Origin: Clostridia bacterium
GTDB lineage: Bacteria > Bacillota > Clostridia > Oscillospirales > Acutalibacteraceae
Assembly: GCA_017554405.1 (NCBI GenBank)
Contig: JAFZIK010000045.1
Span: forward strand, 1 to 36,069
Length of the DNA: 36,069 nt
Direction of reading: 5' to 3'
Part shown: piece by piece, positions 4,874-26,409 of the stretch
How positions within the stretch are numbered: position 1 is the first letter of the stretch
Layout: each line of letters begins with the position of its first letter
Program-made: the position numbers and the translations under genes
The notes under the pieces: model-generated
The model's input: only the letters and a program-made list of their open reading frames with translations
Told to the model about the DNA's origin: nothing
The model's database searches: none

Positions 4874-5076
4874 GAGGACAATATAGTTGGTCTTAATAAT
4901 CTGTCTTTAACGGGATACTCTGCGCCTCTTGCTTTTAAGACCGCCCCGGGCGGTTACAATTACGCAAGCGAGAAATGTCTGCTACTAATGTCTATTATAC
5001 AAATCTTTTGTCTTAACGGGATTTTTTCGGCGGCAACGCCGCCTTCGCGTCGCTTTGCTCCTTGACCACGTCGGCA

Positions 5077-5099
5077 AAAACAGTCCGCCGGACTGTTTT
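5077..5099. repeat. near-perfect palindrome (terminator-like)
   Basis: AAAACAGTCC and GGACTGTTTT form a perfect 10-bp stem around a GCC loop. It could terminate in either direction. It lies next to the outer end of the duplicated tRNA-Ser 3' segment. Confidence 0.6.
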
Positions 5100-5120
5100 C
5101 TTCCGCTTCGCTCCCTCCTT

Positions 5121-5197
5121 GTTCGAATCCCTAACGGCAAAAATCAGAGCCCCCGTTAAGGGGACTCTGATTTTTGGCGGAGAGTTAGGGATTCGCT
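5121..5197 (-). repeat. duplicated tRNA-Ser 3' half, terminator and inverted T-arm
   Basis: Read on the minus strand: the 3' half of the tRNA-Ser T-arm and acceptor through CCA (5197-5176, identical to the functional gene), a terminator hairpin whose stem differs from that of the real gene but still pairs (AATCAGAG/CTCTGATT instead of AATTAA/TTAATT), then an inverted copy of the T-arm (GTTAGGGATTCGAA, 5135-5122). There is no 5' tRNA half, so it cannot make a tRNA. It looks like an attachment-site or element-boundary scar. Confidence 0.8.
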
Positions 5198-5268
5198 ACG
5201 GCGCGACTGTCGCGCCTACACGCCCACGGACTTTGCGACCGTCCACCGGAAGGTCGCAATTTTGCTAT
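5198..5268 (-). repeat. tRNA-associated hairpin repeat, copy 1 (at tRNA-Ser)
   Basis: On the minus strand the core is TTGCGACC, TTCCGGTGGAC, GGTCGCAA, then GTCCGTGGGCGTGTAGG and GGCGCGAC...GTCGCGCC, ending GTAG directly before the tRNA-Ser 3' half. Related copies occur at 10179-10260 and 26008-26076 with different but still complementary stems. Confidence 0.8.
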
Positions 5269-5302
5269 ATCGTTTAATTGTGTTTGTGCGAAGCACACAT
5301 TT

Positions 5303-5336
5303 GTCTGACATCTGAAATCTGACATCTGCCATCTGT
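5303..5336. repeat. short degenerate ATCTG repeat
   Basis: Four to five closely spaced CATCTG/AATCTG units (period about 8 to 9 bp). No function is evident. Confidence 0.4.
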
Positions 5337-5353
5337 TTCGCAAAACCGCCCTT

Positions 5354-5429
5354 TTCGAATCCCTAACGGCCAAAAATTAAAACCCCCGTAAAGGGGGCTT
5401 AATTTTTGGCGGAGAGTTAGGGATTCGAA
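5354..5429 (-). terminator. tRNA-Ser terminator inside a long tRNA 3'-half palindrome
   Basis: After the encoded CCA, the minus strand has AAAAATTAA, CCCCC, loop, GGGGG, TTAATTTTT: a strong rho-independent terminator (about 5370-5407). The palindrome continues outward: the tRNA's own T-arm 3' half (5429-5416) is perfectly complementary over 14 bp to 5354-5367 beyond the terminator, with the acceptor bases GGAGA bulged. Pairing into the T-arm is unusual for a tRNA terminator. Confidence 0.8.
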
Positions 5430-5497
5430 CCCTAGGTCGGCTCGTCACCGACACAGCATTTCGAGTGCTGCACCTTCGACCACTCGGACAACTCTCC
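5407..5497 (-). tRNA. tRNA-Ser (anticodon CGA)
   Basis: Complete cloverleaf on the minus strand. Acceptor GGAGAGT/ACTCTCC, anticodon loop CTCGAAA giving CGA, a long class II variable arm as expected for serine tRNAs, T-arm with TTCGAAT loop, discriminator G and encoded CCA. It reads UCG codons. A consensus promoter lies 28 bp upstream and a terminator directly follows. Confidence 0.97.
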
Positions 5498-10027: not shown

Positions 10028-10111
10028 GCGAGTGTGCTGGAATAGGCAGACAGGCACGTTTGAGGGGCGTGTGTCCAAGACGTACGGGTTCAAGTCCCGT
10101 CACTCGCACCA
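10028..10111 (+). tRNA. tRNA-Leu (anticodon GAG)
   Basis: Full class II cloverleaf: acceptor GCGAGTG/CACTCGC, anticodon loop TTGAGGG giving GAG, variable arm, T-arm ACGGG-TTCAAGT-CCCGT, discriminator A and encoded CCA. It reads CUC and CUU. Its 3' end (10088-10110) is repeated exactly at 13720-13742 and with one change at 10261-10280, so the gene serves as an integration target. Confidence 0.97.
10088..10110 (+). repeat. attachment-site-like repeat att1 (tRNA-Leu 3' end)
   Basis: The 23 bp from the last G of the T-stem 5' strand to CC of the CCA are identical to 13720-13742. Tyrosine-recombinase elements typically recombine in such tRNA 3' ends. This is the left boundary of the island region. 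Confidence 0.8.
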
Positions 10112-10153
10112 AAATTTCGGGTTTCCGCGTTTGCGGGAGCCCGGAATTTTTAT
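10112..10153 (+). terminator. tRNA-Leu terminator
   Basis: AAATTTCGGG and CCCGGAATTTTT enclose a second CCGC/GCGG stem; T-tract at the end. Directly follows the CCA. Confidence 0.85.
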
Positions 10154-10167
10154 GCCTACAAGAGGGG

Positions 10168-10281
10168 CGGGACTTGAAAAGGACGGTTTGCGAAGCAAAT
10201 CGCAACCTTCCGGTGGACGGTTGCGAAGTCCGTGGGCGTGTAGGCGCGACAGCGCCGTAGCAAGCCCCGTCACTCGCACCA
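10168..10281 (+). repeat. tRNA-associated hairpin repeat, copy 2 (at tRNA-Leu)
   Basis: Begins with an inverted copy of the tRNA-Leu T-arm (CGGGACTTGAA, 10168-10178). Then come AAGGACGGTTTGCGAAGC, the stem CGCAACC/GGTTGCG around TTCCGGTGGAC (10201-10225), GTCCGTGGGCGTGTAGGCGC, and GACAGCGCCGTAG. It ends with the tRNA-Leu T-arm 3' half and CCA (10261-10281). Compared with copy 1 the core loop is identical while both stem strands changed together. Confidence 0.85.
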
Positions 10282-10440
10282 GAAAAAGGACTTGCTGAGG
10301 CAAGTCCTTTTTCAATGATATCCGTTCCTTGTCGGAACGGATGATATATGCTTCGCACATGATATACCCTGCGGGTATGAAATACTTTATGTATTCCTCG
10401 CCAATAGCGAGATATACATAAAGCATTAAGGAACGGATAT
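10262..10440 (+). repeat. long direct repeat A (left flank of the island)
   Basis: About 180 bp containing a tRNA-Leu 3' end, a terminator and part of a hairpin array. It is repeated at 13722-13903 with about ten differences by eye. Recombination between the two would delete 3.46 kb. Confidence 0.9.
10283..10312 (+). terminator. second tRNA-Leu-type terminator (copy A)
   Basis: AAAAAGGACTTGC pairs perfectly with GCAAGTCCTTTTT around TGAG. The same hairpin lies at 13745-13774 after the other tRNA 3'-end copy. Confidence 0.85.
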
Positions 10441-10514
10441 CATATCATGTTTGCGTCCGCAAATATATCATGCTCGCAAAGCGAGTATATCATGCGGCGA
10501 AGCCGTATATCATT
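10315..10514. repeat. hairpin array with ATGATATA/TATATCAT spacers (copy A)
   Basis: Short hairpins with unrelated stems are separated by a constant spacer: ATCCGTTCC/GGAACGGAT, TGC-TTC-GCA, CCC-TGC-GGG, then CTCGC/GCGAG, TTTGC/GCAAA, CTCGC/GCGAG, CGGC/GCCG. The spacer is ATGATATA in the first part and TATATCATG in the second. An outer stem TGATATCCGTTCC/GGAACGGATATCA (10315-10327 and 10430-10442) closes the first part into a branched structure. No coding potential. Confidence 0.8.
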
Positions 10515-10517
10515 AAA

Positions 10518-10560
10518 CCTTCCGTGGGCGTGTAGCAGGGCAGCGCCGTAGCAAGCCCCG
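10518..10560 (+). repeat. truncated tRNA-associated hairpin repeat, copy 4, with att-like end
   Basis: Starts CCTTCCG and jumps directly to TGGGCGTGTAG, missing the second strand of the variable stem, then GGGCAGCGCCGTAG and CAAGCCCCG (10552-10560), the start of the tRNA-Leu T-arm 3' half. The acceptor part is absent. It probably marks the left edge of the island proper. Confidence 0.75.
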
Positions 10561-25924: not shown

Positions 25925-26007
25925 TTGCAAACCGTTCTTTTGATACTTTCTTACCAAAAATACAACCGCCCCAAGGAGAAAGCAAAAAACAATGGTAAAT
26001 GAGGATC

Positions 26008-26076
26008 GCCCGGCGCAACGCGCCGGCACGCACGCGGGCTAACCGAACGTCCGCCGGAAGTTCGGCATTTTGCTTT
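26008..26076 (-). repeat. tRNA-associated hairpin repeat, copy 3 (at tRNA-Ala)
   Basis: On the minus strand: GCAAAATGCCGAAC, TTCCGGCGGAC, GTTCGG, then GCGTGCGTGCCGGCGCG...CGCGCCGG and CGATCCTC. The stem is CCGAAC/GTTCGG rather than GCGACC/GGTCGC (copy 1) or CGCAACC/GGTTGCG (copy 2), while TTCCGG-x-GGAC is kept. The last 8 bases equal the T-arm 3' half of the neighbouring tRNA-Ala (TTCGATCCTC). Confidence 0.75.
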
Positions 26077-26086
26077 TAAAAAAAGA

Positions 26087-26292
26087 ATCGGGCGTGTGCA
26101 CGAATGAAAACAAAAGTGAAATCGCGGCTTTGCCGCGGTGAAATCTTCGGGCAAAGCCCTTAGGTGAAATCGAAGTCTTCGACTTCGGTGAAATTAAATC
26201 CGTCCTACACCCCGCGAAGCGGGATTTCACCGCCGGAGGCGATTTCACCCACCGTAGGTGGATTTCACCCGTCCGCAAGGACGGATTTAGTT
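26087..26292. repeat. hairpin array with GTGAAAT/ATTTCAC spacers
   Basis: GTGAAAT occurs at 26116, 26138, 26164 and 26188; its reverse complement ATTTCAC at 26224, 26242 and 26262. Between them lie perfect hairpins with unrelated stems: CGCGGC/GCCGCG, GGGC/GCCC, CGAAGTC/GACTTCG, CCCGC/GCGGG, CGCC/GGCG, CCACC/GGTGG, CCGTCC/GGACGG. AAATCCGTCC (26195-26204) also pairs with GGACGGATTT (26279-26288), closing a multibranched structure. The first unit matches 4824-4873. Confidence 0.85.
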
Positions 26293-26293
26293 G

Positions 26294-26332
26294 AAAAGAC
26301 TCATCTTTTTGTAGACAAAAGATGAGTCTTTT
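26294..26332 (-). terminator. tRNA-Ala terminator
   Basis: A perfect 16-bp stem AAAAGACTCATCTTTT/AAAAGATGAGTCTTTT directly after the tRNA CCA on the minus strand. Confidence 0.9.
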
Positions 26333-26333
26333 C

Positions 26334-26409
26334 TGGTGGAGACGGAGAGGATCGAACTCTTGACCTCCTGAATGCCATTCAGGCGCTCTCCCAGCTGAGC
26401 TACGCCCCC
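26334..26409 (-). tRNA. tRNA-Ala (anticodon GGC)
   Basis: 76-nt cloverleaf on the minus strand: acceptor GGGGGCG with two G-U pairs to CGTCTCC, D-arm GCTCAGCTGGGAGAGC, anticodon loop ATGGCAT giving GGC, T-arm AGAGTTCGATCCTCT, discriminator A and encoded CCA. Reads GCC and GCU. Confidence 0.97.

Follow-up and report, generated by a model that had tools for sequence, protein, structure and literature searches.

The tRNA-Ser(CGA), tRNA-Leu(GAG) and tRNA-Ala(GGC) genes of a Clostridia bacterium (GCA_017554405.1, genome G000) are each followed by the same repeat, and each copy ends in a matching T-arm tail of its own tRNA, as the initial annotation of this DNA had claimed. The copies belong to a family of folded units whose tags follow the neighbouring tRNA. 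Our tentative reading, which we hold as quite possible rather than probable, is that they are small insertion units, most of them without genes, that address the T-arms of tRNA and tmRNA genes and carry a folded recombination site. The window analysed here comprises 36,069 nt (contig JAFZIK010000045.1, positions 1-36,069). No description of such units was found in the titles and abstracts of the open-access papers surveyed.

Anatomy of the units

Along the tRNA strand, the observed order is tRNA tail, terminator-like hairpin, inverted tail copy (hereafter the anti), AAAA or AACA, core, GTAG or a variant of it, direct tail copy and another terminator. We define the tail as the 21 nt from T-loop C56 to CCA; the anti usually copies 8-15 nt of the neighbouring tRNA's tail, starting from C56. 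In the core, P2 (GGRC/GYCC) encloses hairpins P3 and P4 and is followed by single-stranded GTGGGCGTGTA and then by hairpin P5, and the anti paired with the direct tail forms P1, which closes the whole unit. Covariance-model matches are about 90-190 nt long. The features of the window are collected in Table 1.

Table 1. Unit features in the window, by tRNA locus.
Feature	Position	Strand	Evidence
tRNA-Ser(CGA)	5407..5497	-	ARAGORN; tail = 5407-5427
Anti of tRNA-Ser tail, 12 nt exact	5356..5367	-	Sequence
Ser core, long form, insertion in P3	5196..5355	-	R1 match 5183-5370, 98.7 bits
Direct copy of tRNA-Ser tail, 21/21 nt	5175..5195	-	Sequence
Tandem second unit, different (type 2) core	5013..5135	-	R2 match 5013-5138, 31.4 bits, E 1.6e-4
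tRNA-Leu(GAG)	10028..10111	+	ARAGORN, sequence; tail C56 to CCA = 10091-10111
Terminator-like hairpin between tRNA and unit	10112..10152	+	Sequence, folding
Anti of tRNA-Leu tail, 9 nt exact	10168..10176	+	Sequence
Branched core (P2 enclosing P3 and P4, then P5), GTAG end	10177..10260	+	R1 model
Direct copy of tRNA-Leu tail, 20/21 nt	10261..10281	+	Sequence
Second terminator, then Gut-1-like hairpin array	10282..10314	+	Sequence; Gut-1 match 10313-10388
Right-part remnant of second unit, Leu tag CAAGCCCC at 10552-10559	10516..10559	+	Core-only blastn
tRNA-Ala(GGC)	26334..26409	-	ARAGORN
Gut-1 RNA match in hairpin array between tRNA-Ala and remnant	26219..26293	-	Rfam match
Right-part unit remnant, tag CGATCCTC at 26001-26008	26001..26097	-	R1, 32.9 bits

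The Ser tag, quoted at first as 8 nt and placed about 2 nt off, proved real and extends over the whole tail from C56 to CCA. The Leu tag stood as described, and the 8-nt Ala match is likewise genuine, lying in a decayed unit about 6 nt from where it had been placed. The anti at the left end, the terminator between tRNA and unit, the type 2 unit behind tRNA-Ser and the remnant with a Leu tag go beyond that annotation. The covariance model R1 was built from 11 units of G000, among them the Leu unit, which it matches at 10162-10273 with 123.6 bits. In the type 2 unit the anti occupies 5124-5135, and a degenerate direct copy, AATCCCGTTAA, lies at 5013-5023.

The second-unit remnant behind tRNA-Leu stands beyond a hairpin array resembling Gut-1 RNA (RF01706), and behind tRNA-Ala a terminator and such an array occupy the place of the left part that is present in genomes G067 and G064. 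Gut-1 RNA is found behind the same tRNAs as the units but is a separate hairpin array that can occupy the place of a unit's left part, and no tail copies were seen alongside it in the loci read. These arrays begin right behind the tRNA terminator (10313-10516 and 26098-26300 in the window, and locus L018); at all three loci the array occupies the place expected for the left part of the unit, and the right part lies behind it.

A blastn search of G000 returned 12 matches. Eleven are core copies, nine of them located 3' of a tRNA on their own contig and two at contig edges. The 3' side was read for 33 of the 34 tRNA matches, all except C37:10-82, which runs off its contig. Units or remnants were seen by eye at 14 genes: four Ser, Leu GAG, Gly CCC and TCC, Arg ACG and TCT, Pro GGG, Ala CGC and GGC, His and Tyr (the Ser TGA unit, divided between two contigs, was assigned by sequence). 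A core fragment lies behind tRNA-Glu, and one contig-edge unit (L003) has the same tail as the tmRNA units of G064. Most remaining tRNAs of the genome have a terminator and, beyond it, either a Gut-1-like array of hairpins, some unrelated gene or an island.

Tags follow the neighbouring tRNA

A second search of the fetched loci with R1, at E up to 0.1, gave two sets of 70 hits, one from 56 sources and one from 60, and thus 140 in total; sources were picked for holding hits, L029, L057, L071 and L072 were excluded as repeats or overlaps, and contig-end split or double hits were kept. A same-strand ARAGORN tRNA lies upstream of 113 of the 140. A 21-nt upstream tail was readable for 112, of which 91 start 30-60 nt past the tRNA; the remaining 21, many being later units of arrays, begin 141-886 nt away. 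The far tag is identical to the tail of its own tRNA over 21 of 21 nt in 40 of 107 cases (permuted mean 1.0, maximum 6 in 10,000 permutations) and the anti over 12 nt in 30 of 112 (permuted mean 1.3, maximum 8), the permutations taking hits as independent while some are orthologous or lie within one array. At least 19 nt of the far tag are identical in 53 of 107. Chance is an unlikely cause of this matching. The check suggested for the three window copies, a covariance model run on relatives with a table of tag against tRNA, thus came out positive, and the proposal of an element family tied to T-arms, with a tag that follows the neighbour, is borne out.

Because the R1 model itself includes tails, we also report blastn with tail-free cores over 40 genomes. 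It found 33 places. Comparison by eye showed 32 of them to be R1 hits; the remaining one is a remnant with the Leu tag. Among the 27 hits without an ARAGORN tRNA, 20 loci with one hit each were inspected. Four lie behind a tmRNA gene (L031, L058, L062 and L113), and 12 have at most 207 nt of upstream contig, including L038 (207 nt) and L095 (166 nt), both without a whole tRNA there. In L091 the tRNA is masked, L074 and L132 lie behind tRNA remnants, and L056 has neither tRNA, tmRNA, remnant nor contig edge and a tag unlike a tRNA tail. A scattered REP-like repeat was rejected within the genus, where hits are nearly always behind tRNA or tmRNA genes, in line with the earlier opinion that this is not a random REP sequence.

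In 50 of 107 units the anti matches the tail on the tRNA side over a longer stretch than it matches the far one; the reverse holds in 2, and both agree equally in 55. It may therefore be something other than pairing with the far copy that maintains the anti. This bias fits either insertion as a single block or template-switching correction.

The core covaries as a folded strand

Changes on both sides were observed in 20 of 34 pairs over 13 aligned units, and none of 500 shuffles of this alignment reached any of the five observed values. The alignment of 70 hits, which was fitted to the model, holds 506 double-change cells against 149.7 in shuffles; the number of pairs with a double change was reached by one of 500 shuffles, pairing in P2 to P4 is 96-98%, and P1 is paired in 85.6% of cells, with double changes in 9 of 12 pairs. 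When four sequences were folded singly, GlyTCC preferred other pairs within P1 in both runs, and Tyr did so in the RNA run. On the tRNA-sense strand, G-U outnumbers A-C in P4 (29 against 5 cells) and in P3 (7 against 2). These counts bear at most on which strand folds, and they favour the tRNA-sense strand, whether as RNA or as DNA, clearly in P4 and weakly outside it.

The same G-U excess in P4 and P3, together with the compensatory changes, would suit a functional RNA produced by read-through from the tRNA promoter, in which the tRNA-like tail might serve processing or regulation and the copies would be kept by selection. It also agrees with this that no Rfam family reached the gathering threshold in the core, where the window and part of the unit-bearing loci gave sub-threshold, chance-like matches only. 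We nevertheless regard such an RNA as unlikely, for P2 (4 against 4) and P5 (9 against 8) show hardly any difference between G-U and A-C, presence is patchy and many far tails are decayed. Moreover, the gap of 36-57 nt between CCA and anti contains a terminator-like hairpin in each of the 91 units that lie close to a tRNA; all of these gaps fold at -8 kcal/mol or below, and 86 have a T run. Because this terminator-filled spacer leaves little room for a promoter of the unit's own, we favour a role of the unit in DNA rather than RNA.

Distribution, arrays and mosaics

Within the genus, R1 gave 114 matches in 28 of 61 genomes, the 61 being a sample from a larger group; within the order it matched 12 of 245 genomes, including G000 and G067. 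The R2 model matched 15 of 391 genomes of the class (including G000, G067 and G177) and 3 of 299 in the phylum, namely G000 and two genomes of one genus. A same-strand tRNA or a visible tRNA tail lies upstream at 13 of 18 such distant loci, whose cores differ widely. Neither was seen at the other five (L334 and L345, both of G344, and L341, L342 and L343), which is evidence against strict tRNA specificity far from the genus. In G344 about 1.4 kb separate the two family units; by eye, this interval holds a sugar-isomerase-like gene region, and no tRNA was recognised there.

Phages and plasmids gave no blastn match to the Leu unit. Viral contigs held 34 stretches with a 16-base core pattern, the best model match among them reaching only E 0.25. 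On genome contigs this pattern was too loose, with at least 118 stretches, and the 80 listed come mostly from other phyla; of 13 of these 80 put through the model, five matched (L179, L182, L187, L203 and L237), all except L203 apparently from genomes already searched.

Units form arrays at 18 loci, many with a start-to-start spacing of 150-175 bp. In the core tree (88 columns, 99 rows, many open forks), a clade with support 98 unites cores at six tRNAs in five genomes: Pro (a label assigned from the tail), Arg CCG, Ala CGC, Thr CGT, Leu GAG and Gly TCC (a unit cut by a contig end). As raw counts, labels change 54 times for tRNA and 61 times for genome.

Some units combine tails of two tRNAs. 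Sixteen rows were flagged, most of them ambiguous, with source tails allowed from any genome. In the clearest cases, the SerGGA units of G000 and G064 carry a SerCGA anti, the SerCGA units of G027 and G123 SerGGA-like antis, and the AlaCGC unit of G064 an AlaGGC anti; SerGCT of G000 has a SerCGA-type far tail. By eye, the split SerTGA unit of G000, which stood outside the mosaic test, has a SerGGA anti. The foreign part in mosaics is the anti only or the far tail only. Simple cassette recombination at the T-loop would place the donor's tail on the recipient tRNA, and the mosaics speak against it. A single rule of exact 21-nt target-site duplication was likewise set aside; it fits the SerGGA-type mosaic and fails to fit all loci.

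From the patchiness, the mosaics and the mixed core phylogeny we infer that the units move, empty and occupied tRNA loci having been compared between species with one genome each; an excised form was not seen. A terminator-linked structure could also have spread without any recombinase, by gene conversion or template switching through shared tails. Quasi-palindrome correction is a process that could then keep the anti matched: the tail-terminator-anti stretch is a near palindrome, the anti follows the tRNA-side copy, and the clearest mosaic transfers are between isoacceptors with a common C56-C63 and CCA end. On the other hand, correction would have to be slow, given that G000 and G064 share the SerGGA mosaic; one supported clade includes cores at tRNAs whose tails differ, and gene-bearing units exist. 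We judge spread of this kind to be improbable.

Gene-bearing units

Units that enclose genes are rare (L055, L327, L314 and L375). In G066, a PF05635 four-helix-bundle gene and a GNAT gene stand between tRNA-Gln(CTG) and the anti, after which come core and far tail; behind the same tRNA in G011 lie a four-helix-bundle gene, a second ORF without a Pfam match, anti, core and a short far tail. In G016, tRNA-Gly(TCC) precedes a hairpin array, a four-helix-bundle gene, a further ORF with a sub-threshold transglutaminase-like match, an anti and a cut core.

At tRNA-Arg(CCG) of G011 (L375), about 4 kb separate tRNA and unit. This stretch contains an opposite-strand transposase-like ORF that looks IS3-like by eye, together with an AAA_21/AAA_15 ATPase of 445 aa and a DUF4276 protein of 203 aa. 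Among PADLOC models this pair matches HEC-01A (E 1e-31) and HEC-01B (E 4e-6) best, although many others match the ATPase too, and by these similarities the two resemble a candidate anti-phage-like system. The ATPase and DUF4276/RloB-like pair lies at 10295-12233 of L375, in a tRNA-anchored stretch. At tRNA-Arg(CCG) of G004, terminator and unit come directly after CCA. Both G011 and G071 have a similar terminator and a unit with a different core at a greater distance; the extra DNA begins right after CCA, and its terminal 21 nt are not a copy of the tRNA-Arg(CCG) tail. We take this to mean that DNA is acquired at a constant position at the 3' end of tRNAs, where the unit remains as a marker.

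PF05635 genes were also seen by eye shortly behind tRNA genes in 17 of 30 fetched PF05635 loci (L305, L306, L308, L310, L312-L316, L318-L320, L322, L324, L326, L327 and L329), several with an intervening Gut-1-like array; in L310 the gene lies behind RNase P RNA. In L326, about 1.75 kb with a four-helix-bundle gene lie behind tRNA-Leu(CAA) between direct repeats of acceptor end and terminator.

Candidate enzymes and known systems

No recombinase was found linked to units in the loci read, and no integrase-like ORF was seen in the gene-bearing L055, L327 and L314. Where hits start 30-60 nt from the tRNA (91 of 112), there is no room for an integrase gene between. Tyrosine recombinases (PF00589, IntI and Xer pooled) occur in all 23 genomes searched, with or without R1 hits. 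The Y1 transposase (PF01797) gave no match in four of ten unit-bearing genomes (G064, G002, G020 and G071, with completeness of 94, 90, 86 and 84%, respectively) and three matches of 30-36 bits in G000. The reverse transcriptase family RVT_1 (PF00078) gave no match in seven (G000, G067, G064, G012, G002, G020 and G048) of ten unit-bearing genomes, all incomplete drafts, and one or two in each of G071, G004 and G011. By presence and absence, none of the three fits as motor. The initial annotation had offered either targeting of T-arms or an RNA-mediated process; the former agrees with our results, and the latter gains no support from the RVT_1 counts or from the terminator between tRNA and unit, though a reverse transcriptase might act in trans or have since been lost.

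A regenerated tDNA with a displaced fragment is a known signature of tyrosine-integrase islands (PMC4383910). The units might accordingly be scars or non-autonomous relatives of such islands, their tails being attL and attR and the core a conserved attP region. Islands and units both target tmRNA, and integrase genes adjoin tRNA-Leu(CAG) and tRNA-Arg(CCT) in G000. We consider this origin unlikely: the core covaries as a folded single strand, which a double-stranded attP does not need, the inverted tail is left without a role, hits occur at 23 tRNA anticodon kinds, and G067 combines 16 R1 hits with three PF00589 matches. Like tDNA islands, the units have their site in the 3' part of tRNA or tmRNA genes, accompany a regenerated gene with a displaced fragment of the same tDNA and form tandem arrays; unlike them, they are about 90-190 nt long and usually gene-free, have an inverted tail and a covarying core, and show no integrase between gene and fragment. 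Islander requires an integrase gene and filters on length (PMC4383910), so such units would escape its listing.

The units share with integron cassettes the order of direct, inverted, folded-core and direct arms, as well as arrays and occasional genes, and imperfect inverted arms close a folded site. They differ in being tRNA-anchored, in having tRNA tails as arms, in that no linked integrase was found and in that most bodies contain only a terminator. Integron attC sites carry RYYYAAC and GTTRRRY boxes; by eye, unit junctions show no attC core-site sequence and instead GTAG|CGAA, CGGG|CGAA or similar. REP sequences have GTAG beside a hairpin, and the units, which are likewise short structured repeats, often have cores ending in this way. 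In contrast to REP and REPIN elements, they stand behind tRNA or tmRNA genes (nearly always, in the genus) and have target-following tags, and no Y1 transposase was found in four of ten genomes. The intervening sequences of 23S rRNA with their PF05635 protein are structured inserts at structural RNA genes, as are the units, some of which contain PF05635 genes; the units, however, lie behind rather than within the mature RNA, and most lack a PF05635 gene.

With no linked integrase found and no attC core sequence, the units belong neither to tDNA islands nor to integron cassettes. They are a new variant of tDNA-addressed insertion, and possibly a class of their own.

A possible insertion mechanism

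If the units are insertion units as we propose, anti and direct tail would pair and close the core into a folded site laid out like an integron attC. The folded strand would be the substrate, and some recombinase would presumably act in trans. Insertion would leave a second tail copy at the far end of the unit, and the tRNA would stay whole, because a complete tail and terminator stand beside it. Repeated insertion or duplication could then produce arrays. The terminator is also repeated in L335, L355, L098 and L326; given this and the non-tail end at tRNA-Arg(CCG), we claim no single insertion rule.

A bolder reading, which we find doubtful, is that of self-addressing mobile DNA, whose insertion site would fold from the core and from arms copied off the target tRNA; each move would then re-template the tag, and genes, including defence-like ones, would be captured into tRNA-anchored arrays, integron-like without an integron integrase. 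If the units do move, some clostridial tRNA genes would be anchors of a gene-capture system overlooked, by its very design, by an island finder that demands an integrase gene (PMC4383910), and the question arises how an element of about 150 bp gains matching forward and inverted copies of the local tRNA tail. Even if immobile, a covarying structure whose closing stem tracks its neighbour is a natural experiment in target-derived sequence.

Other inserts at tRNA tails

Inserts with tRNA tails and a different core were seen in L006, L035, L305, L015 (tRNA-Thr TGT) and L341; all of these except L015 have GGGTACTG and CGGTCG in common, and in L305 the core, of a different class, is flanked by an inverted and a direct tRNA tail. 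In L034 and L082 a further short element (GCGGCAAAGTGCCGC ... GTCTA) lies directly past the far CCA, and in L034 it is followed by another copy of the acceptor end.
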